Shown: positions 80 through 12,814 of the stretch, in pieces | Layout: every line of letters begins with the position of its first letter | Numbering within the stretch: the first letter of the stretch is position 1 | NCBI GenBank assembly: GCA_018260755.1 | Contig: JAGTWP010000011.1 | Coordinates: 1-12,814, forward strand | From: Candidatus Altarchaeum sp. | Lineage (GTDB): Archaea; Altiarchaeota; Altiarchaeia; Altiarchaeales; Altiarchaeaceae | Reading direction: 5' to 3' | DNA: 12,814 nt | Program-made: the position numbers and the translations under genes | Notes under the pieces: generated by a model | Database searches by the model: none | The model's input: only the letters and a program-made list of their open reading frames with translations | What the model was told of the DNA's origin: nothing

Positions 80-838
80 ATGCGTCTCATTATTAAAATT
101 TTGCCAAAGGAAATTTTTGCATACGAAGAAATAAGCAAATACTTTATTCACTCGTTTATATGGAATTTGCTTAAAGATACGGAATTTTCTAAATTTCACG
201 ATACGAAGAAATTTAAATTTTTCACATTTTCAAATATATTTCCTGTCCGCGAGTTTAAATTTAACGAAGAAAAGCTGCTCATTATTTCTTCTCCGAATGA
301 TTACTTTGTAGATACAATTGCAGAAAAATTACAGAACATCAGATATTTAAAGTTTGGAATTCATGAATTTGAAGTGAAGGAATTTAAGAAATTTTCAATG
401 GAATTAAAACAACGATGGGAAACATCTACGCCTATTGTTTTGTATGAAAATAATAATACGAACACATATTATTCAACAAACAGGAATCCAGATTTAAATT
501 TCTTTCTTGAACGACTAAAGGATAATGCGCTGAAAAAATTTAACGCTTTCTATAATAAAAATTTCGGTTTTGAGGAACCAATATTTGACAGATTGTTCTT
601 CAAAAGGCAGGTTGCTGTCCATATGAGAAAAGATATGACTGACTTTTTGTTTTTGGGAACATTGTGGGAGTTTGAGCTCAATTTATTGCGGATGAATGAA
701 GAAAAAAGAAGGTTTTATGAATTCATAATGGACTCAGGACTAGGAGAAAAAAACAGTTTAGGATTCGGGTTCATAAACATGAAAAGAGAAAAACAAAAAA
801 ACACCGAAAAAGCATTAATAACACACGAATATGATTGA
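80..838 (+). CDS. cas6: CRISPR pre-crRNA endoribonuclease Cas6
   Basis: Cas6 is the metal-independent RNase that cuts the repeat RNA to make crRNAs with an 8-nt 5' handle. The 252-residue protein has the two-ferredoxin RAMP layout. Near the N-terminus, residues 40-51 (H-D-T-K-K-F-K-F-F-T-F-S) resemble the conserved 'LHD..gFK.fTFS' stretch of Cas6, making H40 the likely catalytic histidine, with H24 as an alternative. Near the C-terminus, residues 220-230 (GLGEKNSLGFG) form the family's glycine-rich RNA-binding loop. An upstream in-frame start is not available, because the ATG at 64 runs straight into TGA. The gene is first in the effector operon and overlaps cas8b by 8 bp. Its substrate is presumably the array at 10674 onwards, whose repeat 3' end (ATGGAAAC) matches a typical handle. 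The family call is strong; the choice of catalytic His is inferred. Confidence 0.95.
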   Translation: MRLIIKILPKEIFAYEEISKYFIHSFIWNLLKDTEFSKFHDTKKFKFFTFSNIFPVREFKFNEEKLLIISSPNDYFVDTIAEKLQNIRYLKFGIHEFEVKEFKKFSMELKQRWETSTPIVLYENNNTNTYYSTNRNPDLNFFLERLKDNALKKFNAFYNKNFGFEEPIFDRLFFKRQVAVHMRKDMTDFLFLGTLWEFELNLLRMNEEKRRFYEFIMDSGLGEKNSLGFGFINMKREKQKNTEKALITHEYD

Positions 839-2279
839 AGCGATTAAAGAGATTGGGAAATATGAACTTAAAAATAAAGGTAAAAATATTGATAATTCTT
901 TAGACCTCTTACACATATTAATTGATGATCCCGAAAGTAATCCAAAAAAACCAACATATAAGAAAATATTAGTTATTCTCATAAAAAAAGTAGGTGAAAA
1001 ATATGAGTATAGTGGTGTTGAGATTGAGGAATATGATGGAGAAAAGATAAATAAGTATTTATACAAACAAGGTAGTCCAAAAGGTACTGACATAACCCCC
1101 ACCTCAAGAGTAACCACAATTGATTCTACCTTTGAAAAGACGAAAATTTTACCTTGGTTTAATAATCTCCAAGAAATTAATTTAGATGAAGGAATTAATT
1201 TAGTTAATATTGGGGATTGCATCAGGAACAATAAAGAACAAATTCTGAACGATTTGAATGAAAAACACTCAGAGATTGACAAAAAAGAAAAATCCGTTAT
1301 TACTTTAAAAATTGATGGCAAGTATGTTGGAGAGTACAATATTTTTAAAAGAATCCTGGTTGAAGAATCTAAAAAAGGGCTTTACTCAAAATATGGAAAA
1401 ATCTCAAAGGCAGAAAATGAATTTTGCTATGTGTGTAATGAAAGAAAAAAAGATGTTTATGGTTTTGTAGATACTTACAAGTTTTATACCGTAGATAAAC
1501 CAGGATTTGTCAGCGGGGGTTTTCATCAAAAAGACGCTTGGAAGGTTTATCCTGTGTGTTTAAATTGTGCATTGGTTCTTGAGGTGGGGAAGAAATATGT
1601 TAATGATAATCTGAATTTTAATTTTTATGGATTTAACTACTTTTTGATTCCGAAATTCATTAACAAAGAAGGTTATGAGAGCAAAAAGGAAATTTTTAAA
1701 TTGATAGAGAATCAGCAGGATCCAAAATTTGCGAAAAAAGAAGTGAAACGCTTCACACAAGACGAAAAAGAGATATTAGAGGTTATGAGTGAGCAGAAAA
1801 ATTATCTGAATATGAATTTTATGTTTTATGAAGCACCAAAAGGACTCGGTGGTTCTGTGTTTAATATTCTTTTGTATGTTGAGGATATTTTGCCATCGCG
1901 ATTAAAAAAACTCTTTGATGAGAAGAGAGAAGTTGATAAGATGGATATCTTCAAAGAATGCATGGCGCCTGTTTTCAAAGATAAAAAGAAAATTGGTGAG
2001 GTTTCATTGGAATTTAATTTCGGTATTTTACGAACATTTTTACCAAAAATAAGCAAGAATAGGACATACGATAAATATTTTTTGGACATAGTAAATAAAA
2101 TATTCACAAACAAGCAGGTTAATTATGACTTTTTGATGCAGTTTATCATGCAAAAAATAAGAGACGAGTTTGTTAATGGTTATTCAACTGATTCAACTAA
2201 GATATCAACTCTTAAAGGATTCATGCTTTTAAATTATCTCAATAATATAAACATTTTAAAAACCAATAAAAAGATATGA
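831..2279 (+). CDS. cas8b: Type I-B Cascade large subunit Cas8b (Csh1/TM1802 family), lacking its C-terminal small-subunit domain
   Basis: Cas8b recognises the PAM and anchors crRNA and target in type I-B Cascade. The 482-residue protein carries the Csh1/TM1802 hallmark zinc-binding block: C199-x2-C202 and C243-x2-C246, separated by a segment with F-Y-T-V-D-K-P-G-F (218-226) and followed by V-G-K-K-Y. The zinc block lies at about 199-246. The protein is shorter than the roughly 550-650 residues usual for fused Csh1 proteins. The missing C-terminal part is found in the next gene, whose ATG overlaps this stop codon (ATGA, 2276-2279), so the split looks like a stable two-gene arrangement rather than decay. 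It overlaps cas6 by 8 bp, implying coupled translation. No frameshift signature such as a long homopolymer is seen at the junction. Family is clear; the split is seen directly. Confidence 0.93.
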   Translation: MIEAIKEIGKYELKNKGKNIDNSLDLLHILIDDPESNPKKPTYKKILVILIKKVGEKYEYSGVEIEEYDGEKINKYLYKQGSPKGTDITPTSRVTTIDSTFEKTKILPWFNNLQEINLDEGINLVNIGDCIRNNKEQILNDLNEKHSEIDKKEKSVITLKIDGKYVGEYNIFKRILVEESKKGLYSKYGKISKAENEFCYVCNERKKDVYGFVDTYKFYTVDKPGFVSGGFHQKDAWKVYPVCLNCALVLEVGKKYVNDNLNFNFYGFNYFLIPKFINKEGYESKKEIFKLIENQQDPKFAKKEVKRFTQDEKEILEVMSEQKNYLNMNFMFYEAPKGLGGSVFNILLYVEDILPSRLKKLFDEKREVDKMDIFKECMAPVFKDKKKIGEVSLEFNFGILRTFLPKISKNRTYDKYFLDIVNKIFTNKQVNYDFLMQFIMQKIRDEFVNGYSTDSTKISTLKGFMLLNYLNNINILKTNKKI

Positions 2280-2743
2280 ATAATTCAAAAATGGAAACAA
2301 ATCCAATAAATGTATCAGGGAGCGAAACTTCGGAAAAAGGAGAAGAAATAAAACAAAAAACAGAGGTGTTCTTTGAGCAATTTGCTGACTTCTTTGATAG
2401 CGACGCTAAAAGGGCAATATTTTTAGAAGGTGCTTTGACACAATTCTTATTGAAAATTCAGTATCAAGAAAGAAAAGCAACACCATTTAGAGTTAAACTA
2501 AAGGGATTAAACCTGAATGAAAAAGAGATAAAAACCCTTTTGCCGGAAATACAAAACAAGTTAGAGGAGTATAGAAAAAATTATTATAGAATATTAGAAT
2601 CCATAATATCAGAGTATTTCGTCTCATCAGGAAATGGGTGGAAATTAACAAACGATGAAATAAGTTTCTATTTCATGCTTGGGATGAATTTATCTTATAA
2701 ATTTAAATCTAAAAAGGAGGAAAATAAAAATGGCAACGAATGA
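2276..2743 (+). CDS. cas11b: Stand-alone Cas11b-like small subunit, equivalent to the C-terminal part of Csh1
   Basis: The 155-residue protein begins with a polar, low-complexity segment (about 1-30) and then has a helical region (about 42-150). This resembles the C-terminal region of fused Csh1/Cas8b proteins: residues around 43-60 (A-K-R-A-I-F-L-E-G-A-L-T-Q-F-L-L), then I-Q-Y-x-E-R, L-N-L-N-E-K-E-I-K, L-L-P-E-I-Q-N-K-L-E-E-Y, and finally D-E-I-S-F-Y-F-M-L-G-M-N-L. In type I-B systems this region is known to be made as a separate Cas11 small subunit by internal translation of cas8b. Here it has its own gene. The start ATG lies in the ATGA overlap with cas8b. An alternative start is the Met at residue 6 (2291). 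The end overlaps cas7 by 14 bp and carries the cas7 ribosome binding site. Assignment rests on remembered family consensus; a fused pseudogene is less likely because both junctions are tidy. Confidence 0.78.
   Translation: MNNSKMETNPINVSGSETSEKGEEIKQKTEVFFEQFADFFDSDAKRAIFLEGALTQFLLKIQYQERKATPFRVKLKGLNLNEKEIKTLLPEIQNKLEEYRKNYYRILESIISEYFVSSGNGWKLTNDEISFYFMLGMNLSYKFKSKKEENKNGNE
2714..2720 (+). promoter_or_regulatory. Strong Shine-Dalgarno site for cas7
   Basis: AAGGAGG lies 9 bases before the cas7 ATG at 2730, inside the last codons of the small-subunit gene. It is the only near-perfect ribosome binding site I see in the operon; the other genes rely on overlapping stops and starts or on weak sites. 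Cas7 is needed in several copies per Cascade, so a strong site here makes sense. Confidence 0.8.
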
Positions 2744-3701
2744 AATTATAAAAAACAGGTCGGAAATCGTATTTCTATACGATATAAAGGATGCAAATCC
2801 CAATGGTGATCCGCTGGATGAGAACAAACCAAGAATAGACGAAGAAACCGGAATAAATATTGTAACTGATGTTCGGTTAAAAAGAACAATAAGAGATTAT
2901 CTGAAGGATTTTAAAGGGTATGATGGGGAGAAAGAGAAAGATATTTTTGTAAGAGAAATTCATGATGAAAACGGATTTATTCAAGACGGTAAGACAAGGG
3001 CAAAAGATTTTAAAGACAAAGAAGAGGTATTAAAAAACTGTATTGATATAAGGCTTTTTGGGGCAGTAATACCCTTAGAAGAAAAGAAGAAAAACAAAAA
3101 GGAAGATAAAACAGAAGAAAAACAAAAAGAGGATGGTAAAGAAAGATCAATAACATATACAGGACCTGTTCAATTCAGAATAGGAAGATCTCTCCATAAA
3201 GTAGAAATGAAACACATCAAGGGTACTGGAGCATTTGCTTCAAAGTCAGGAGCAACACAAAAAACATTCAGAGAAGAAGACATTTTGCCTTATTCACTAA
3301 TCTCTTTCTATGGAATTATTAATGAAAATGCAGCAAAATATACTAACCTTACAGAAGACGATGTAAATCTACTTTTAGAAGGTATGTGGAATGGGACAAA
3401 AAATCTAATTTCAAGAAGCAAAGCTGGACAGATGCCAAGATTGCTTTTAAAGGTAAATTACAAGGAAAGCAATTATCATATTGGTGACTTGGATAAGATG
3501 ATTAAATTAAAGTCAGAAAAGAATGATGAAGAAATTAGAGATATTTCAGAAGTAACTTTTGATGCGAGCGAATTAATAGAAACTTTAAATAAGAATAAAA
3601 ACAAGATTGCAGGTGTTGAGTTTAAAATTGATAACAGAGTAAAGATTGACTTAAGTAAATTAGATAAAGAAATACAAATGAAGGAAATACAAATTACATA
3701 G
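2730..3701 (+). CDS. cas7: Type I-B Cascade backbone protein Cas7 (Csh2 family)
   Basis: Cas7 polymerises along the crRNA spacer to form the Cascade backbone. The 323-residue protein has the Csh2/CT1132 signature near its N-terminus: Y-D-I-K-D-A-N-P-N-G-D-P (17-28), P-R-I-D-E-E-T-G (34-41), and T-D-V-R-L-K-R-T-I-R-D-Y-L (46-58). Further on are D-I-R-L-F-G (106-111) and T-G-P-V-Q-F-R-I-G-R-S-L-H (144-156), also typical. Between them, residues about 116-139 form a highly charged Lys/Glu/Asp insertion that is probably a flexible loop. The start at 2730 is fixed by the AAGGAGG site and by the family's usual distance to the NPNGDP motif. It overlaps the small-subunit gene by 14 bp and is followed 4 bp later by cas5. 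The product is not in doubt. Confidence 0.97.
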   Translation: MATNEIIKNRSEIVFLYDIKDANPNGDPLDENKPRIDEETGINIVTDVRLKRTIRDYLKDFKGYDGEKEKDIFVREIHDENGFIQDGKTRAKDFKDKEEVLKNCIDIRLFGAVIPLEEKKKNKKEDKTEEKQKEDGKERSITYTGPVQFRIGRSLHKVEMKHIKGTGAFASKSGATQKTFREEDILPYSLISFYGIINENAAKYTNLTEDDVNLLLEGMWNGTKNLISRSKAGQMPRLLLKVNYKESNYHIGDLDKMIKLKSEKNDEEIRDISEVTFDASELIETLNKNKNKIAGVEFKIDNRVKIDLSKLDKEIQMKEIQIT

Positions 3702-3705
3702 GAAT

Positions 3706-4500
3706 ATGACTCAAGAGCAACAAGATATAAGAAGGATATTAGTATTTGATGTATGGGGGGATTACGCTCATTTTAGGAGAGGTTATACGACCACTTCCCC
3801 ACTCACTTTTTCCATACCTCCTAGAACTGCTCTGTGTGGTTTGGTTGGTGCGATATTAGGGCTTGAAAAAGAGGATAATGAGTATCTAAAGTATTTTACA
3901 TTAGACAAAGCAAAGATCGGGTTGAAGTTATTGAATCCTGTGAAAAAAACACAGATTGCAGAAAATTTAATTCATACTAAAGATGCAAAAGGAATTGGAA
4001 TGAACATGATTAAAACAAGGACACAAATCCGATTTGAATTTCTAAAAGATCCGAGATATAGGATTTATTTTTGGCATAGTGATAATGAAATATATGAACA
4101 TTTAAAAAATAATTTGATAGAACACAAATCTGTTTATACTCCGTGTTTTGGATTGAGTGAAAACATAGCGAATTTTAAGTTTGTTGGTGAAATAAATGTT
4201 GAAATTAAAGAACCCAATGAAAAAGTTTTAATTCATTCTGTTCTACCTGCTGAAAAAGTAACTGACAAACAGGGGATTAACTTTTACTCTGCCAAAGGAG
4301 AACCCAACGGGGAATATTTTTCATTACGACTTCCCACTGAAATGAATCAAAACCGAGTTATTACAAAATATTCTGACGTCATTTTTGAAAGAAATGGAAA
4401 CGAAAGAAATGAAAACCCAATAGATGCAAATATGAAAGAACCTTATTGTGAAGTAACTTATAAAGATGGAACAAGAGAAAACATCGTTTTTATTGAATGA
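3706..4500 (+). CDS. cas5: Type I-B Cascade protein Cas5 (Cas5h/Cas5b)
   Basis: Cas5 caps the 5' handle of the crRNA and contacts Cas8b and the first Cas7. The 264-residue protein opens with the Cas5 RAMP N-terminus: V-F-D-V-W-G-D-Y-A-H-F-R-R (13-25), then the 'tTSPlTFsiPPRTALcGLvGAILGL' signature seen at about residues 30-53. Type I-B Cas5h proteins share exactly this layout. The ATG at 3706 follows the cas7 stop by 4 bp and a weak AGGA sits within the overlap with that stop codon. The 3' end overlaps cas3 by 35 bp. Cas6 is encoded separately, so this Cas5 is not expected to process RNA as Cas5d does in type I-C. The length is normal for the family. Confidence 0.96.
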   Translation: MTQEQQDIRRILVFDVWGDYAHFRRGYTTTSPLTFSIPPRTALCGLVGAILGLEKEDNEYLKYFTLDKAKIGLKLLNPVKKTQIAENLIHTKDAKGIGMNMIKTRTQIRFEFLKDPRYRIYFWHSDNEIYEHLKNNLIEHKSVYTPCFGLSENIANFKFVGEINVEIKEPNEKVLIHSVLPAEKVTDKQGINFYSAKGEPNGEYFSLRLPTEMNQNRVITKYSDVIFERNGNERNENPIDANMKEPYCEVTYKDGTRENIVFIE

Positions 4501-6961
4501 ACTTAAATCCCATCCAGATAAATACCTATTCAACCATCTAAAAAACGTTGGAGATTTATCAAAGAAAACAATAAAATCAAAAAAATTAAATCTTGGTAAA
4601 TTCATTAATTCTGAAATACTTGAAGACATTTCTTATTTAATTGGCATATCTCATGACTTTGGCAAGGCAACCAACTATTTCCAAGGATACATAAACGAGG
4701 AAAATGAAAAAATAAAATTGAAACTTAAAAATAAACTCGAAACACACCACGCATTTTTATCTTCACTATTTACTTACTATGTTGTTAAAGATTATCTTTC
4801 CAGAAAAGATTTAGTGGAAAAAAAGTATTATAAATACCTTCCTATTATAAGCTTTTTAGTTGTAAAAAGGCATCACGGAAACATAGATAAGAATGCCTCT
4901 GATGAAACTTATGACTGCACTGTTGATGATGATGACAAAAAATTTGAAATTATAAAAAAACAGATTGCCGCCATTGATTTTGATAAATTAAATACCCTCT
5001 ACAAAAAACTTTGTTTTGATTATGAAATAAAGATTCATGACTTTAAGGATAATTATAACAAAATTGTAGACGAGATAAACACCAAACAAAAGAGGTTAAT
5101 AAGAAAGTTGGATGATGAAAATACTTTAGTTTATTATTTCACAACACTGTTGCTTTACTCAGTTCTTTTAGATACAGATAAAACAGATGCTGCAAACTTA
5201 AAACCTATTGAGCGAAAGGACATCGATAAGGATGTTGTTGATAAATACAAAAAAAATAAGTTCGGTGGTTTAGATGAGACAAATAAAAAATCAAAAATAA
5301 ACGAAATAAGAGAAAATATCTACAATGAGGTAATCTCAAGTGGTGATGATTTGAATTTAGATAAGGATAAAATCCTTTCTTTAAATGTTCCTACAGGGAC
5401 CGGAAAAACTCTGACTTCTTTTTCTTTTGCACTTAAGTTAAAAGAACGATTGAAAAAAGAAAACGGATTTAACCCACGGATAATCTACTCTCTTCCTTTT
5501 TTAAGCATTATTGACCAGAACAGCGATGTTTTTAATGATGTTTTAGACAATCCAACAACAGATATTCTTTTAAAACATCATCATCTTTCAGACATATCTT
5601 ACAAAACAGAGAACGAATTTGAGGATGTAGAACTGGAAAGAGACATCAGTAAAAGTTTGCTTTTAATCGAGGGATGGAATTCTGAAATTATTGTAACAAC
5701 ATTCATGCAGTTCTTTCATTCTTTTATTACTAATAGGAATAAAGCAATAAGAAAATTTCATAACATATCAAATTCTATTGTAATTCTTGATGAAGTGCAG
5801 GCGATACCTCATAAATACTGGCTGCTTTTAAAGGAAACGATAAAGTTTTTTGCCGAGCATTTCAACACCTATTTTGTTTTTGTTACCGCAACACAACCTT
5901 TAATTTTTGATGAAAAAAGGAAAGAAATAAAATCCTTAATAAAAAACAAGGAGAAATACTTTAAAATTTTTGACAGAGTTGATTTAATACCAAATTTGAT
6001 TCCATTAGATATAGAAAAATTTAAAGAAGAGTTAAAAAAGGACATTTTTCAAAATTCAGATAAAGATTTTCTGGTTGTTATGAATACAATCAATTCTTCA
6101 AAAGAGATTTATAATTTTATTAAAAGTGAATTAAGTAACGACAAAAATACAAAAATTTATTATCTCTCTACAGGTATTGTTCCAACAGAAAGATTAAAAC
6201 GGATAAAAGAGATAAAGGAAAAAACAAAAGAGAGAAAAATTATTGTCAGCACACAACTTATTGAAGCAGGAGTGGACATAGATGTTGATGTAATTTATAG
6301 AGATTTCGCACCGCTTGATTCGATAAATCAGATTGCTGGAAGATGTAACCGTAATTTTGGAGATAAAAAAGGACAAGTAAAGGTGTTTATTTTGACTGAA
6401 AAAGAAAAGGATAAAAAATATTATTCTTACATATATGACTCTTTTATTACAGGAAAAACTGAAGAAGTTTTTAAAGAAAATGAAATTTCGACAACAAATG
6501 AACCAAAACCAATAAATGAACGACAATTTTTGGAATTGAATAATTCATATTTTGAAAAAGTAAAATCCGGGATGAGCAATAATGAATCAAACGACATATT
6601 GGCCGATGTAAAAAAATTAAATTTTGAAAAGTTATCAAAATTCAAATTGATAGAAGAAGATTCTTATAAAGTTGATGTTTTCATAGAAGTGGATGAAGCA
6701 AAAGAGGTATTACAAAAATACAAGGATATTATGAAGAATGACAAACTGAAAGGGTTTGAAAAGAAAAATGAGTTTCTTAAAATAAAAAAGGATTTTTATG
6801 ATTATGTTATATCTGTTGATAAGAAAAAAATAGAGGCGTTACCGTTTTTGATTGAAGATCAATTGTTATATATATCAAACAAAGATTTAAAATTGTGGTA
6901 TAAACCAGATATTGGTTTTGACCCGTCTCCTGATGCATCTTTCAATTCCCGCTGTTTTTAG
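4466..6961 (+). CDS. cas3: CRISPR-associated helicase-nuclease Cas3 (N-terminal HD domain fused to SF2 helicase)
   Basis: Cas3 is recruited by target-bound Cascade and unwinds and degrades DNA. The 831-residue protein has an intact N-terminal HD nuclease domain: H24, the H63-D64 pair followed by F-G-K, H94-H95, H136-H137, and D236/D238 in an L-L-D-T-D motif. The helicase part has Walker A P-T-G-T-G-K-T (309-315), the DEVQ box (442-445), T-A-T (474-476), S-T-Q-L-I-E-A-G-V-D-I-D (595-606) and Q-I-A-G-R-C-N-R (622-629). A roughly 200-residue C-terminal region follows. The start at 4466 lies inside cas5 (35-bp overlap). No other ATG in this frame is available before the HD domain's first histidines and catalytic pair, so this start is favoured. 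The stop TAG overlaps or abuts cas4. All the motifs I looked for are present, so the enzyme should be active. Confidence 0.97.
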   Translation: MEQEKTSFLLNELKSHPDKYLFNHLKNVGDLSKKTIKSKKLNLGKFINSEILEDISYLIGISHDFGKATNYFQGYINEENEKIKLKLKNKLETHHAFLSSLFTYYVVKDYLSRKDLVEKKYYKYLPIISFLVVKRHHGNIDKNASDETYDCTVDDDDKKFEIIKKQIAAIDFDKLNTLYKKLCFDYEIKIHDFKDNYNKIVDEINTKQKRLIRKLDDENTLVYYFTTLLLYSVLLDTDKTDAANLKPIERKDIDKDVVDKYKKNKFGGLDETNKKSKINEIRENIYNEVISSGDDLNLDKDKILSLNVPTGTGKTLTSFSFALKLKERLKKENGFNPRIIYSLPFLSIIDQNSDVFNDVLDNPTTDILLKHHHLSDISYKTENEFEDVELERDISKSLLLIEGWNSEIIVTTFMQFFHSFITNRNKAIRKFHNISNSIVILDEVQAIPHKYWLLLKETIKFFAEHFNTYFVFVTATQPLIFDEKRKEIKSLIKNKEKYFKIFDRVDLIPNLIPLDIEKFKEELKKDIFQNSDKDFLVVMNTINSSKEIYNFIKSELSNDKNTKIYYLSTGIVPTERLKRIKEIKEKTKERKIIVSTQLIEAGVDIDVDVIYRDFAPLDSINQIAGRCNRNFGDKKGQVKVFILTEKEKDKKYYSYIYDSFITGKTEEVFKENEISTTNEPKPINERQFLELNNSYFEKVKSGMSNNESNDILADVKKLNFEKLSKFKLIEEDSYKVDVFIEVDEAKEVLQKYKDIMKNDKLKGFEKKNEFLKIKKDFYDYVISVDKKKIEALPFLIEDQLLYISNKDLKLWYKPDIGFDPSPDASFNSRCF

Positions 6962-6975
6962 TGAACATGATCAAA

Positions 6976-7470
6976 ATGAAAATCACCGGTGTAATGATGC
7001 AGTATTATAAGGCGTGCAAGCGTGAATTATGGTTTTTTGCAAATCAGATAAACATGAATTATGAAGATGAAAATATAAGTATAGGCAAGTTACTTCACGA
7101 GACATCATATCCGAATGAAAGAAAAAATATAATTATTGATGATACAATTGCGATTGATTTTATTAAAAAAGAAGGTGAACAGTTAATATTTGAGGTTAAG
7201 AAGTCAAGCAAACTGAAAATTCCGACATTATACCAAATTTATTATTATCTCTGGTATCTGAAAAACAAGAAGGGAATCAATATTAAAGGAGCAATTGTTT
7301 ATCCAAAAGAAAAGAGGCGAGAGGAAATTTCATTAACACCAGAAATTGAGAAAGAAATTGAATTTATTGTTCAAGATATTCCAAAAATTTTAGAACAAAA
7401 AACACCTCCAAAAGCCGAGAATAAGAAATATTGCAAGCGGTGCAGTTACTATGAGTTTTGCATGGTTTGA
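6976..7470 (+). CDS. cas4: Cas4, iron-sulfur RecB-family exonuclease of the adaptation complex
   Basis: Cas4 trims prespacers and helps select PAM-containing ends with Cas1-Cas2. From the ATG at 6976 the protein is 164 residues. It has the four cluster cysteines: C14 in Y-Y-K-A-C-K-R-E-L-W, then C153, C156 and C162 in the C-terminal Y-C-K-R-C-x5-C. The RecB nuclease residues are H41 (G-K-L-L-H-E), D61 (A-I-D-F), E73-x-K75 (F-E-V-K) and the Q87-x2-Y90 motif. I chose 6976 because Cas4 proteins usually begin with a short M-K-I-T-G. ATG 6967 or GTG 6961, which overlaps the cas3 stop, would add 3 or 5 residues. It is the last gene before the 112-bp gap, and so sits with the effector operon by spacing although it acts with cas1 and cas2 beyond the AbiE genes. 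Confidence 0.95.
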   Translation: MKITGVMMQYYKACKRELWFFANQINMNYEDENISIGKLLHETSYPNERKNIIIDDTIAIDFIKKEGEQLIFEVKKSSKLKIPTLYQIYYYLWYLKNKKGINIKGAIVYPKEKRREEISLTPEIEKEIEFIVQDIPKILEQKTPPKAENKKYCKRCSYYEFCMV

Positions 7471-7582: not shown

Positions 7583-8236
7583 ATGAAAAAATCAGAGATT
7601 GTCCTTAAAACATTGTATTACAAAAGAAAAAGGTTTGTATCGAGAAAAGACCTTGAGGAAGTGTGCAAAGAGTATCAAGTAAATCCGTTCAAGATAATAA
7701 AATACTTTCTTGAGCAAGGATATTTTATAAGGGTTTTTAGGGGTATTTTCTATCTCAGAGACCCTTCTGAAATCAAATTAAACCACCTTAACTTTTCCCC
7801 TCATGAAATGATCGCCGAGGGATTGTTGCTTAAGGGCGTTAAAAGATGGTACTTTGGGATATACAGTGGATTAAAGTATAACAACATGACACATGAGTAC
7901 TTCAATACAGATTTCATAGTCAATGATTCGATACATCGCGAAAAGTCGATGAAAATGAGCGGATGCAGATTCAAGTTCATTAAACTGAAGCCAACAATGT
8001 TTGAGTTTGGAATAATTACAGAAAAAACAAAAAATGGCATAACAATTAATTACAGCGATAAAGAAAAAACAGTTATGGATTTTGCATACTTGTGGAAACG
8101 GAATGGGAAAAGCATAGATATTATCAAATCCTATGTTAGCGAGTATATAGAGCATCTTGATAACAGAAAAATAGAGAAATACTCAAAATATTATCCAAAA
8201 TGGATGAAAGAATTGATCGCGAGCCTGAGAGATTGA
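7583..8236 (+). CDS. abiEi: AbiEi-type antitoxin and transcriptional repressor
   Basis: This is the antitoxin half of an AbiE (type IV) toxin-antitoxin pair. AbiEi proteins have an N-terminal winged helix-turn-helix that binds the operon promoter and a C-terminal domain that opposes the toxin. Here residues about 1-58 fit the winged helix: helices around 3-12, 21-29 and 35-45, then a wing reading G-Y-F-I-R-V-F-R-G-I-F-Y-L. Residues about 72-217 form the AbiEi body, including A-E-G-L-L-L (78-83), Y-F-G-I-Y-S-G-L (90-97) and the conserved-looking D-K-E-K-T-V-M-D-F-A-Y-L (159-170). It is 217 residues, normal for the family. The next gene is an AbiEii toxin, which supports the call. It follows a 112-bp gap holding an inverted repeat, and lies between cas4 and cas1, an unusual place. 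No clear ribosome binding site precedes its ATG. Confidence 0.85.
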   Translation: MKKSEIVLKTLYYKRKRFVSRKDLEEVCKEYQVNPFKIIKYFLEQGYFIRVFRGIFYLRDPSEIKLNHLNFSPHEMIAEGLLLKGVKRWYFGIYSGLKYNNMTHEYFNTDFIVNDSIHREKSMKMSGCRFKFIKLKPTMFEFGIITEKTKNGITINYSDKEKTVMDFAYLWKRNGKSIDIIKSYVSEYIEHLDNRKIEKYSKYYPKWMKELIASLRD

Positions 8237-9156
8237 TGGCGTTCATAGAAACTATGCACGATTCTCTTGGCGTTGAAAGAGAAAACAGGTACTTGGTAGA
8301 AAAGGATCTTTATCTGACAATAATTTTAAAGGAACTCCAGAAAACTGATTTTCACAAAAATTTAGTGTTCAAGGGTGGAACGTGCCTGGCGAAAGCGTAC
8401 CTGAATTATCACAGATTTTCAGAGGACATAGATTTCACATGGAAGGACCAGGAAATTTTCAAAGGAAAAAGTATGACGAGTATACGAAAAATTTGTTCAG
8501 GACATATAAACGAGGTTGGTTCTGCTCTGCTCGAAATTTCAAAAAAATATGGATTTTACTTTAAATTTGAGAAGCATAATAGGGACTATGTACAGTTAGG
8601 CGGCAGCAATAAGTTGGTCACCTTTCTTATATGGTTTGATTCAATAGAAGGCAGGCGATCTATGATAAAAATTCAGATAAACTTCTTAGAGCATATAGAG
8701 TTTCCCGTTATGAAGAAGGAACTTAAACCCTTAATAGAAAGATTCCCGAAAAAAGAAGAGGTGTATTTTAGCGATTTTCTTGGGTTTTACAAAGATCTAA
8801 ATTATTTAGTTTATGATATTCGCGAAATTGCGTGTGAGAAAATAAGGGCACTTCTGACGAGAAAGACTATAAACTCAAAAGATCTGGTGGATCTTTATCT
8901 CATTCACAAAAATTTCGGTATTGATGTGTTTAAATTGAACAATTCATGGGTGAAAAAGACGAAATTTGCAATAGAGATCTACGAAAAATACAAAGAGAAC
9001 TTTGAGGCAAGAACGGCGCTAACATTAGAATCTGCTGGATTAGACAAAGTGGAAAACCTTCTTTTGACTGAAATTGACAAAAATGACTTTGAAATTTTTG
9101 TAACCGAACTTCTAAATAAATTAAAGAATGAAACAATCGCTTTATTTAACGAATGA
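8236..9156 (+). CDS. abiEii: AbiEii-type nucleotidyltransferase toxin
   Basis: AbiEii toxins are nucleotidyltransferase-fold proteins; AbiEii binds GTP and the related MenT toxins block tRNA 3' ends. From ATG 8236 the protein is 306 residues. It has V-E-K-D (21-24), the F-K-G-G-T-C-L-A-K segment (45-53), and S-E-D-I-D (62-66) in R-F-S-E-D-I-D-F, the DxD-type metal-binding motif. The C-terminal motif is E-K-I-R-A-L-L-T-R followed by S-K-D-L-V-D-L (K202, R204, R209, D216, D219). All key residues appear intact. I prefer 8236 because TGATG couples it to the abiEi stop; an upstream ATG at 8200 would add 12 residues and overlap abiEi by 37 bp. The 3' end overlaps cas1 by 29 bp, so translation of cas1 is tied to the toxin gene. 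Confidence 0.9.
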   Translation: MAFIETMHDSLGVERENRYLVEKDLYLTIILKELQKTDFHKNLVFKGGTCLAKAYLNYHRFSEDIDFTWKDQEIFKGKSMTSIRKICSGHINEVGSALLEISKKYGFYFKFEKHNRDYVQLGGSNKLVTFLIWFDSIEGRRSMIKIQINFLEHIEFPVMKKELKPLIERFPKKEEVYFSDFLGFYKDLNYLVYDIREIACEKIRALLTRKTINSKDLVDLYLIHKNFGIDVFKLNNSWVKKTKFAIEIYEKYKENFEARTALTLESAGLDKVENLLLTEIDKNDFEIFVTELLNKLKNETIALFNE

Positions 9157-10102
9157 AGGAATTTTAGAACGGGAAGGAAATACTATTTATTTTATTCGCG
9201 AAGGTGAAAAGAAGGCTATTCCGATAAACAATATATCTGAAATACTTTGCCTAGCAAGGGTAAGTTTGCGTTCTGGAGCAATTGCATTTTTGTTTGAGAA
9301 TTGTGTTCCCGTTCACTTTCTTAATATGTATGGGCATTATACAGGATCTTTGTACCCACGGAACTTTCTTATTGCAGGGAAGGTTCTTATGAAACAGGTT
9401 GCTTTTTGTCTTGATAGTATGAAGAGATTGAACATAGCAAAGGAATTTGTGCAGGGAATAAAGTACAATACTTTAAAAACATTAAAATATTACTCAAATC
9501 GCGGAAAAGATATAAATTTTGAAGATGTTGAAAATTTAAATCCAGATAATGCTATTGATATTCCCACGCTTATGTCAATTGAAGGAAAAATCTGGGATAA
9601 TTATTACAAAAATTTTAATGAAATTTTAAAAAATTTTGAATTTACCAAGAGAGAAAGGAGACCTCCTACAAACGAGATAAACGCACTGATAAGTTTTGGA
9701 AATTCTTTGCTTTATTCAACAACGCTTTCTGAAATTTACAATACATACTTAAATCCAGCAATTTCTTTTTTACATGAGCCGCAGGAAAGAAGGTATTCGC
9801 TGGCTTTGGACATTTCGGAAATTTTTAAGCCGCTACTTGTTGAAAGAACCATATTTAAATTAGTGAATAAGCAGATGCTGACGGAGAAACATTTTGAAAA
9901 CGAACTGAAAGGGGTTTATCTGAACGATGAAGGAAAAAGAATTTACCTGAAAGAATATGATGAACGGTTAAATACGACAATAAAACATCCGACACTTGAA
10001 AGAGAAGTAAGTTACAGGCGGCTGATACGGTTGGAATGTTATAAAATTGTAAAACACATTATTGAAGATGAGGAATATAAATGTTTTAAGATGTGGTGGT
10101 GA
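9128..10102 (+). CDS. cas1: CRISPR adaptation integrase Cas1
   Basis: Cas1 is the integrase that, as a complex with Cas2, inserts new spacers at the leader-repeat junction. The 324-residue protein begins with the usual S-L-Y-L-x-N-E-G-x-L-x-R-x-x-N-T-I-Y-F. It keeps V-H-F-L-N-x-Y-G-x-Y-x-G-S-L-Y-P-R (62-78) and the catalytic metal ligands: E152 (M-S-I-E-G), H216 (F-L-H-E-P) and D228/E231 (A-L-D-I-S-E-I-F-K-P). The start at 9128 is set by the family N-terminus and requires a 29-bp overlap with the end of the AbiEii toxin gene. That overlap is hard to explain by a recent insertion and suggests a settled operon. Cas2 follows after 33 bp. The call is certain at family level. Confidence 0.97.
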   Translation: MKQSLYLTNEGILEREGNTIYFIREGEKKAIPINNISEILCLARVSLRSGAIAFLFENCVPVHFLNMYGHYTGSLYPRNFLIAGKVLMKQVAFCLDSMKRLNIAKEFVQGIKYNTLKTLKYYSNRGKDINFEDVENLNPDNAIDIPTLMSIEGKIWDNYYKNFNEILKNFEFTKRERRPPTNEINALISFGNSLLYSTTLSEIYNTYLNPAISFLHEPQERRYSLALDISEIFKPLLVERTIFKLVNKQMLTEKHFENELKGVYLNDEGKRIYLKEYDERLNTTIKHPTLEREVSYRRLIRLECYKIVKHIIEDEEYKCFKMWW

Positions 10103-10135: not shown

Positions 10136-10399
10136 ATGTATCTGATTGTGGTTTATGATATAAACGAAAAGAGGGTAAATAAGGTATGCAAATTTTTAAG
10201 GACATATCTTTACTGGATTCAGAATTCGGTGTTTGAAGGAGAGGTTACCGGTGCAAATTTTGAGAAAATAAAGGTTAGATTGAAAAAGATTATCAGGGAA
10301 GAAGAGGATTCTGTTATTTTCTTTAAAATGCCTTCTGAAAAAGGTATGGAAAAAGAAATTTTAGGTGTTGAAAGGAATGAAATTACAAATATTCTTTAA
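10136..10399 (+). CDS. cas2: CRISPR adaptation protein Cas2
   Basis: Cas2 dimers bridge two Cas1 dimers in the spacer-integration complex. The 87-residue protein opens with a ferredoxin-like first strand, L-I-V-V-Y-D-I, placing the conserved aspartate at D8. It continues with R-V-x-K-V-C-K-F-L-R, Y-L-Y-W-I-Q-N-S-V-F-E-G-E-V, the Cas2 hallmark, and ends after S-V-I-F-F. Length is normal. It follows cas1 by 33 bp and ends 274 bp before the first repeat, so the array leader starts directly after it. The first two Met/Tyr codons match family starts, and no better start exists upstream. Confidence 0.96.
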   Translation: MYLIVVYDINEKRVNKVCKFLRTYLYWIQNSVFEGEVTGANFEKIKVRLKKIIREEEDSVIFFKMPSEKGMEKEILGVERNEITNIL

Positions 10400-10673
10400 C
10401 ATACCCCCACCCCCGTCACTTCCTGTATTATTAAAATATTTTTGTTTTGAAATGAAATTCGGACTAAAAATTTCAAAAATTTTGGGAAATTTAGATGTGT
10501 TTTTGGGGTTGACTAATTTTTACCCGTAAGGTATTTTTCTTTTCATCAGTAAAATTTTGTCTATGTATAATAAATGGTTTCCAAGAGAGGGTTCGACTGG
10601 ATTTTAACGATTATTTAAATGTTTAATGTTTAAAATTTAATTATTTATGAAAATTTTCAATCGTAAATTTTTG
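10400..10673 (+). promoter_or_regulatory. CRISPR leader
   Basis: This non-coding, AT-rich 274-bp stretch joins cas2 to the first repeat. It begins with a C-rich patch (CCCCCACCCCC). An imperfect inverted repeat follows: TTTTGAAAT at 10445-10453 against ATTTCAAAA at 10470-10478. A bacterial-style promoter pair is visible: TTGACT (10509-10514), 17 bp, TATTTT (10532-10537). The last 80 bases before the array are almost pure A/T. Repeat orientation (ends in GAAAC, handle-like) puts the leader here, upstream of an array read on the + strand. The leader call is strong; the promoter elements are tentative. Confidence 0.85.
10509..10537 (+). promoter_or_regulatory. Possible -35/-10 promoter for the array transcript
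   Basis: TTGACT and TATTTT are separated by 17 bp, the ideal spacing for a bacterial housekeeping sigma factor. A start near 10545 would give about 130 nt of leader RNA before the first repeat. This is meaningless if the host is an archaeon. Confidence 0.3.
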
Positions 10674-10836
10674 GTTTAAATCGCACTATGTAGTATGGAA
10701 ACACATAAAATTTCAAAATTTACTTCTTATGGGAATATCAGTTTAAATCGCACTATGTAGTATGGAAACAGATATATTGTTCCCAAGCAGACCAAAGACA
10801 TTTGCTGGTTTAAATCGCACTATGTAGTATGGAAAC

Positions 10837-10872
10837 AATTTCATCACGACCTCGATTTGGAAGCAACTGGTA
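10837..10872 (+). repeat. Spacer 3, same sequence as spacer 5
   Basis: All 36 bases are identical to the first 36 of spacer 5 (10966-11003), which has two extra bases (GT) at its leader-distal end. Spacer 4 lies between them. Confidence 0.95.
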
Positions 10873-10965
10873 GTTTAAATCGCACTATGTAGTATGGAAA
10901 CTTCTCCATGAAAAGTTGTAAAATTTAGCAAAAACTGTTTAAATCGCACTATGTAGTATGGAAAC

Positions 10966-11003
10966 AATTTCATCACGACCTCGATTTGGAAGCAACTGGT
11001 AGT
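10966..11003 (+). repeat. Spacer 5, 38-nt version of spacer 3
   Basis: This spacer has the same left end as spacer 3 and carries two further bases at its right end. Being farther from the leader, it is expected to be the older of the two. Confidence 0.95.
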
Positions 11004-11032
11004 GTTTAAATCGCACTATGTAGTATGGAAAC

Positions 11033-11069
11033 CTCGAACTTGATTGTTTCCATACTACATAGTGCGATT
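11033..11069 (+). repeat. Spacer 6, inverted copy of a repeat-spacer junction of this array
   Basis: The last 24 bases (11046-11069) are the exact reverse complement of the final 24 bases of the repeat. The preceding 12 bases (11034-11045) are the reverse complement of the first 12 bases of spacer 21 (12011-12022). Only base 11033 (C) fails to match. The source segment is therefore 11987-12022 of the same array, or an identical copy elsewhere. Confidence 0.93.
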
Positions 11070-12814
11070 GTTTAAATCGCACTATGTAGTATGGAAACAA
11101 TTCTCTCCACTCCAACACCACAGGTGGTAGCAAGTTTAAATCGCACTATGTAGTATGGAAACAATACTGCGTCGCCGTCTATTGCCTTTTCTATTATTTG
11201 TTTAAATCGCACTATGTAGTATGGAAACTTGTTGATGGCAATTATAATGTAGGAGTTTTAACACGTTTAAATCGCACTATGTAGTATGGAAACTAACTAT
11301 CGTCGCGTAATTCTCCCATCTCGTAAGATAGTTTAAATCGCACTATGTAGTATGGAAACGATAAAAAAATAAAGGTTTTAGTAAAAGAAAGACTGTTTAA
11401 ATCGCACTATGTAGTATGGAAACCACTTTATCCTGCTTATTTCTAATGCCCGCTTTTTTGTGTTTAAATCGCACTATGTAGTATGGAAACAACTCAATAC
11501 TTTCAAGTTCTCCCCAAATCCCTTCAAAGTTTAAATCGCACTATGTAGTATGGAAACTGCCGCTTGGATAGTATCTTATTTCCACCCTCGTGGTTTAAAT
11601 CGCACTATGTAGTATGGAAACAAAAAACGATTTAGTGTTTTATTTATAAAGAATTTGTTTAAATCGCACTATGTAGTATGGAAACGTAAATTGGGATGGT
11701 TGGTATTTTCGGATTGTAGATAGTTTAAATCGCACTATGTAGTATGGAAACGATTTAAGTAGGCTGGGATATATGGAACTTGAAGGGTTTAAATCGCACT
11801 ATGTAGTATGGAAACGGATATGATAAAAAGATAATATATACTTCATAATTGGTTTAAATCGCACTATGTAGTATGAAAACATGTAAGAGATATTAGTAAG
11901 GTGTTGAGGGAATTGGGTTTAAATCGCACTATGTAGTATGGAAACTATCCATTTTTTGATGCTTTTCCAATGTATTTCCCAGTTTAAATCGCACTATGTA
12001 GTATGGAAACAATCAAGTTCGACATCAGCAAGTGTGTCAGAGTTACCGTTTAAATCGCACTATGTAGTATGGAAACCATAATAAAAATGAGGTAGGTATA
12101 ATGGAAACAATAGTTTAAATCGCACTATGTAGTATGGAAACTCTAATTCATTTTCAAGCATTTCAATTCTTTTCTTCAGTTTAAATCGCACTATGTAGTA
12201 TGGAAACTCAGTTCTTTTTCTCATAGGATAACTAAACACAGTTTAAATCGCACTATGTAGTATGGAAACAAATGTGTAAAAATGGCAAAACCAGAAATAC
12301 AAAACGTTTAAATCGCACTATATAGTATGGAAACTATATATATTATTGACGAGAAATTTAACCTCTGAAAAGGTTTAAATCGCACTATGTAGTATGGAAA
12401 CAGTCGTTCTGCTCTTTCTGCGGTTTTGTCTTTTTCGTTTAAATCGCACTATGTAGTATGGAAACGTGATAAGAGTATTTACGAGTGAAATTGAATTTTG
12501 AGTTTAAATCGCACTATGTAGTATGGAAACCTTTTTGACGAGTTGATAGCGTCCCATCTTGTGAAAATGTGTTTAAATCGCACTATGTAGTATGGAAACT
12601 TAAGTTGCTGATAAAGCACAACTTTATTATTTTTGTTTAAATCGCACTATGTAGTATGGAAACTTGATGATGTTGTGAATAAATTAAATCAAATATTAAG
12701 GTTTAAATCGCACTATGTAGTATGGAAACGAGGCTAAATTAGACGAGTTTATAAAAAAATTTCTCGGTTTAAATCGCACTATGTAGTATGGAAACTTTTA
12801 GATTGCTTCACCGA

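Follow-up and report, generated by a model that had tools for sequence, protein, structure and literature searches.

What can the sequence of a CRISPR array reveal about events at the array itself, when one of its spacers carries an inverted piece of its own repeat? The question is raised by spacer 6 of a type I-B array in Candidatus Altarchaeum sp. (assembly GCA_018260755.1, contig JAGTWP010000011.1), which we analysed in a window of 12,814 nt, the whole stretch of DNA under study. Its source genome (G000) is a draft of 78 contigs with about 15% missing, and three further genomes (G001-G003) are sisters from the same genus. The original prediction, made from the letters of the window, held that the spacer is the reverse complement of a junction between repeat 21 and spacer 21, that the spacer part of this match excludes chance, and that Cas1-Cas2 had captured a fragment of the host's own array. 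The features on which our analysis rests are collected in Table 1.

Table 1. Features of the window discussed in the text, numbered from its first nucleotide
Feature	Position	Strand	Remarks
cas6	80..838	+	
cas8b (TM1802 family)	831..2743	+	split: ORFs 831-2279 and 2276-2743
cas7 (Csh2)	2730..3701	+	
cas5b (cas5h)	3706..4500	+	
cas3	4466..6961	+	full length, 831 aa, as long as G001 cas3
cas4	6961..7470	+	intact
cas1b	9128..10102	+	intact; without reverse-transcriptase domain
cas2	10136..10399	+	87 aa; assigned from position and size
Leader region	10400..10673	+	last ~110 nt recur before other arrays
CRISPR array	10674..12814	+	29-nt repeats GTTTAAATCGCACTATGTAGTATGGAAAC, spacers 33-40 nt; runs on past the window to C44:14114
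Spacer 1, newest	10703..10740	+	37/38 to nitroreductase-family gene, G000:C62:14837-14874(-); mismatch at base 2
Spacer 3	10837..10872	+	36 nt; equals spacer 5 minus 2 nt at the 3' end
Spacer 5	10966..11003	+	38 nt; same protospacer as spacer 3
Repeat 6	11004..11032	+	perfect copy; transcript predicted to pair with spacer 6 over 24 bp
Spacer 6, putative captured fragment	11033..11069	+	37 nt; 11034-11069 is an exact inverted 36-nt copy; base 11033 (C) unmatched
Repeat 7	11070..11098	+	perfect copy; complementary to spacer 6 over 24-27 bp, gap 5 nt
Repeat 21	11982..12010	+	GTTTAAATCGCACTATGTAGTATGGAAAC, 29 nt
Source (protospacer) of spacer 6	11987..12022	-	3'-terminal 24 nt of repeat 21 joined to 5'-terminal 12 nt of spacer 21
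Spacer 21	12011..12047	+	supplies the 12-nt tag by which the source of spacer 6 is recognised

Origin of spacer 6

A repeat search returns spacer 6 and the repeat 21/spacer 21 junction as inverted arms of 36 nt (11034-11069 and 11987-12022), 100% complementary and with 917 nt between them, in agreement with the original prediction. The repeat accounts for 11987-12010 of the source and spacer 21 for 12011-12022. Spacer 6 reads C followed by TCGAACTTGATTGTTTCCATACTACATAGTGCGATT and the source strand reads GTCGAAC..., leaving a single difference at base 1 (C, not G); measured against the host DNA at 11987-12023, 36 of 37 positions are identical, essentially a self match over the whole length.

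The 12 bases shared with spacer 21 make a chance match very improbable, in line with the original argument. Apart from spacer 21, every spacer has at most 3 leading bases in common with the 13-nt tail of spacer 6; of 20,000 random tails, a single one had a shared run as long as 12, and the analytic expectation for a 12-base run against any of the roughly 52 spacers is 1.3e-5. A search for spacer 21 elsewhere in the genome, which had been proposed along with the prediction, finds its head (AATCAAGTTCGA[C/G]ATC, with at most 1 mismatch) at a single place in the 1.32 Mb assembly, and the repeat core stands in inverted orientation at just one of its 61 places. The length of spacer 6 falls within the array range of 33-40 nt and perfect 29-nt repeats lie on both sides; these exact borders and dimensions argue for integration by Cas1-Cas2. 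Judged by these sequence features, spacer 6 is very likely a self-acquired spacer, a fragment of the array that Cas1-Cas2 integrated, with the reservations that a different array in the population may have been the donor and that the first base is unmatched. In this scenario Cas4-Cas1-Cas2 would have picked up a fragment of about 36 bp across the repeat 21/spacer 21 junction, either from the array of the cell itself or from a sister cell's array, and inserted it next to the leader with duplication of the repeat, at a time when spacer 7 stood first in the array. The intact cas1 and cas4 genes and the ORF of cas2 size also speak for this origin.

Could the match have arisen in another way? A virus or plasmid might have carried a mini-array in which the same repeat preceded a variant of spacer 21 (AATCAAGTTCGAG...), which would account for the first-base difference, and viruses of Altiarchaeum do bear repeat-like elements: one-spacer mini-arrays are reported in two Altivir genomes (PMC8324899), and the first 23 nt of the repeat occur in Altivir_8_HURL (BK059162.1) at 9447-9469 on the minus strand, 57 nt upstream of the start of a viral gene (DAZ85592.1), a candidate for a solitary viral repeat. 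However, this sequence, the only repeat-like one that the viral searches turned up, lacks the 3' part of the repeat as well as the tag from spacer 21, and a viral donor would need to carry the very 12 nt already kept in the host's array. In IMG/VR, 0 contigs contain the 24-nt repeat core or its 20-nt inner part, the core was not found in the plasmid collection, and no record in IMG/VR, phages or plasmids holds the repeat 3' end together with the spacer 21 tag; nor did the viral, plasmid, phage and species-genome collections yield an outside donor of spacer 6. We consider a donor of this kind quite improbable. An artefact of assembly or a DNA rearrangement, in which an inverted segment or template switching mimics a spacer with no integration, seems very improbable as well: the genome is a draft in 78 contigs with a 16-N scaffold gap in the array, and long near-palindromes are hard to assemble, but the inverted piece ends at the spacer borders, has a normal length and is flanked by perfect repeats, whereas an inversion or template switch would ignore such borders. 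The predicted capture of an array fragment by Cas1-Cas2, in reversed orientation, is thus supported, no outside donor with the repeat core having been found in IMG/VR, plasmids or species genomes.

Among species genomes, the repeat core is confined to Altiarchaeum-type arrays. It is present in Candidatus Altiarchaeum MAGs (HURL) and in contigs of a Caldisericum MAG with an isolate name beginning in GA; since Altiarchaeum has been described from Geyser Andernach (GA; PMC8324899), these contigs filed under Caldisericum are probably misbinned Altiarchaeum. Altivir_8_HURL offers no convincing protospacer for any spacer compared, and IMG/VR contains no relative of its major capsid protein.

Array polarity and relative age

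The leader can be placed on the left side of the array, because its last ~110 nt recur before other arrays and the repeats at the opposite end are degenerate. The recurrences precede a second array of the same genome on C60 (98%) and stand at the array end of the sister contig G001:C220 (87%); on the right, decayed repeats extend to about position 14,850 of contig C44, outside the window. Given this polarity, spacer 6 entered the array later than spacer 21 and was itself followed by five further spacers. Spacers 3 and 5, with a shared 5' end and differing 3' ends, are probably two acquisitions of one protospacer.

The array was scaffolded, as a run of 16 N directly past the window end (C44 12815-12830) lies inside spacer 33; this gap is away from both spacer 6 and spacer 21. 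The old end of the array (G000:C44:14107-14600) is interrupted by an RNase H gene whose start codon (ATGGAAAC) comes from a CRISPR repeat. The second array, a short one with the same leader (G000:C60:6150-6800), has a small zinc-ribbon-like ORF between the leader plus repeat start and the end of the first repeat.

The cas operon

By NCBIfam and Pfam matches, the window holds the type I-B set of cas8b, cas7 (Csh2), cas5b, cas3, cas6, cas4 and cas1b. In cas8b, a 1-nt deletion in an A-run near 2268 brings the frame to its end at 2279, and the counterpart in G001:C87 is one intact ORF of 636 aa. The second ORF starts in an ATGA overlap, its frame stays open and the C-terminal domain is kept. Judging from the reading frames, the two halves may be made separately, as large and small subunits, and interference may have been lost, reduced or left intact by the split.

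None of the ten window proteins searched is a reverse transcriptase, and Cas1 matches the Cas1 family alone; the candidate explanation that spacer 6 was derived from RNA through an RT-Cas1 is therefore unlikely. Between cas4 and cas1 (7583-9156) lie an AbiEii-type nucleotidyltransferase gene and a partner gene. The pair is absent at the same place in G001:C220, which implies either an insertion into this cas operon or a loss from that of the sister.

A second self-derived spacer and the side of the PAM

New here is that, besides spacer 6, the newest spacer of the array is self-derived. The target site of spacer 1 is present in all four Altiarchaeum genomes, with 1-5 mismatches, and its geometry resembles that of spacer 6: an exact core of 36 nt, a mismatch at the 5' edge, and TAA directly 3' of the protospacer. 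The six youngest spacers thus include two recognisable self-spacers and the ~46 older ones none; the probability of both falling among the first six of about 52 is 0.011. Among the array spacers of Geyser Andernach, G001 and HURL, no additional self-match was of sufficient quality to derive a PAM from.

The unmatched first base of spacer 6 may reflect a trimming error, an added base, or a later mutation in spacer 6 or spacer 21; for the 5' mismatches of both spacers, a duplication of the repeat's last bases or a mutation in the seed may be responsible. We also considered that the extra C was produced by a shifted integration that copies the first bases of the older spacer. Under that model an A should precede spacer 6 and AG spacer 1, which is not the case.

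On the minus strand, the spacer 6 source is preceded on its 5' side by GAT (12026-12024) and, next to the match, by the mismatched G at 12023, as the original prediction gave it; its 3' flank is TAAAC, equivalent to TTTA upstream on the plus strand. The 5' flanks are accordingly GAT for spacer 6 and AAA for spacer 1, or ATG and AAG when only the matched 36 nt are counted. All four are absent from the published I-B PAMs, which comprise CCA, CCN, CCT, TAC, TCA, TCN, TTA, TTC, TTN, TTTA and TTG; TTA is listed there for Methanosarcina and TTTA for Petrimonas (PMC8482600). The opposite, 3' side of both self-spacers carries TAA, a putative TTA PAM on the other strand, at n = 2. By chance, two given flanks would both be TTA with a probability of 0.001 and would share any trimer with one of 0.026 per side.

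From these flanks we would give about even chances that spacers 1 and 6 were integrated flipped, leaving the PAM on the wrong side for the crRNA, a reading of two cases chosen post hoc. For spacer 6, the flipped insertion would have brought the TTA PAM, located within the repeat (GTTTA|AATCGC), to the 3' side of the spacer. A crRNA from such a spacer would face its target with the PAM on the wrong side and would spare the genome. Against this stand the number of spacers, only two and noticed after the fact, and the shared 5' end and differing 3' end of spacers 3 and 5, which correspond to ordinary acquisition with the PAM at the 5' side. Moreover, the searches turned up no foreign protospacer from which a PAM of this repeat could be derived: a comparison of the array with phages and plasmids, the route to the PAM laid out with the original prediction, gave no believable one, and neither did the cores of spacers 3/5, 7, 8, 10 and 21 in IMG/VR. 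Matches to spacers 7, 8 and 10 in IMG/VR were rejected as protospacers, as they do not extend across the spacer.

Tolerance of spacer 6

How does the cell live with a spacer against its own array? The lineage went on to make at least five later acquisitions, so spacer 6 was tolerated, and this copy appears harmless to its carrier. The usual repeat-based protection does not cover its target, the 5' flank of which lies inside spacer 21, as originally pointed out. The further claim, that survival must then depend on an unsuitable PAM or on the first-base mismatch, was too narrow, since the cas8b frameshift and a hairpin of spacer 6 could also contribute; its PAM argument takes another form, with TTA on the far side of both self-spacers, as in flipped integration. 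The first-base mismatch falls in the seed region of type I systems. We would rank the missing PAM 5' of the crRNA highest among the putative causes, followed by interference weakened through cas8b, by the hairpin and by the first-base mismatch; they are not mutually exclusive.

Tolerance could stem mainly from broken interference, if the frameshift in cas8b disables Cascade, so that selection against self-spacers ceases and they accumulate at the young end, which is compatible with a self-captured origin. The 1-nt deletion in the A-run, set against the single 636-aa ORF of the sister, and the confinement of both recognisable self-spacers to the six youngest (P = 0.011) speak for it. Yet the second cas8b ORF keeps its frame and C-terminal domain, so that separate subunits are possible, no other cas gene compared is decayed, and the deletion is possibly a homopolymer error of the assembly; older self-spacers, in turn, may have become unrecognisable or have their sources in the missing 15% of the genome. 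On balance, we regard broken interference as a possible but somewhat doubtful main cause. The hairpin follows from the complementarity of spacer 6 to the repeats over 24 nt: the transcript of repeat 6, spacer 6 and repeat 7 has a predicted fold of -39.8 kcal/mol with a 24-bp hairpin, compared with -10 to -21 for the other 31 units, and this should, according to the model, hinder the processing of spacer 6 by Cas6. One might go further and assign spacer 6 a regulatory role, its transcript pairing with repeats in cis, through the hairpin, or in trans and thereby limiting crRNA maturation. The exceptional folding energy and the complementarity would fit; however, the pairing follows automatically from the origin of the spacer, there is no sign of selection or conservation, and spacer 6 is absent from the three sister genomes and from the Geyser Andernach array, which makes a regulatory role hardly credible.

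Stray repeats in sister genomes

Repeats also stand outside arrays. In the HURL genome, stray repeats lie beside genes, and in at least three cases an adjacent segment of 33-39 nt is duplicated across the repeat in the order R-X-R-X-gene: G003:C139 (rc 6722-6990), G003:C130 (rc 6380-6600) and G003:C79 (1016-1110). The duplicated segment is the start of the next gene in C139, where this is a TraB-family gene, and in C79. A fragment resembling pth2 is found between two repeats directly upstream of the intact pth2 in G003:C88 (991-1110) and G002:C95 (890-1060), the same place in two species. The stray repeats in G003:C109, G002:C95 and G003:C79 are broken at about the same point (GTTTAAATCGCACTA|TGTAGTATGGAAAC), and the dispersed element that interrupts them contains AATCTCCGAGCG...GAGGTGA or a close variant. 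As a speculation, Cas1-Cas2 of Altiarchaeum might repeatedly capture spacer-sized DNA at its own repeats, with spacer 6 as one outcome and the HURL mini-arrays as another; repeats would then be slowly spreading elements, and only flipped self-spacers, without a usable PAM, would persist. We think this scenario unlikely.

Comparison with known systems

Hotspots of spacer acquisition are known at active CRISPR loci in Pyrococcus furiosus, near CRISPR loci in mating Haloferax volcanii (PMC7521656) and upstream of CRISPR-1 in E. coli (PMC10011333). As in these hotspots, Cas1-Cas2 would here have sampled DNA at or near an active array; they are laboratory counts of acquisition, whereas spacer 6 is one inherited event that was followed by at least five acquisitions. 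Its value lies in being a clear natural record of array self-sampling in an uncultivated underground archaeon, with a source made unambiguous by the 12-nt tag. Within the literature searched, which included few subscription journals, we found no publication centred on array-derived spacers.

Self-targeting spacers occur in nature often enough for a review to have been devoted to them (PMC6990116). Spacer 6 shares with the chromosomal ones that a host-matching spacer is tolerated by its host, but it matches the CRISPR array, including part of the repeat, instead of a gene or prophage. Taken together, spacers 1 and 6 lead to the prediction that, among tolerated self-spacers in type I-B archaea, flipped ones whose PAM lies on the wrong side should be over-represented, which bears on how cells survive autoimmune acquisition.

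Genus and system type are shared with the type I-B system described in Candidatus Altiarchaeum (PMC8324899), and the 24-nt repeat core is identical in the HURL (Horonobe) MAG; the present locus differs in its cas8b, frameshifted relative to the sister G001, and in the AbiEii-containing pair that separates cas4 from cas1. Mini-CRISPR arrays carried by viruses (Medvedeva et al. 2019, PMC6858448), considered above as a donor, likewise have repeats of the host type outside the main array, but the searches gave no element in which the 3' end of the repeat is joined to the spacer 21 tag. Acquisition from the array itself is already documented in laboratory strains; spacer 6 is a natural example of it, and not a new kind of system.
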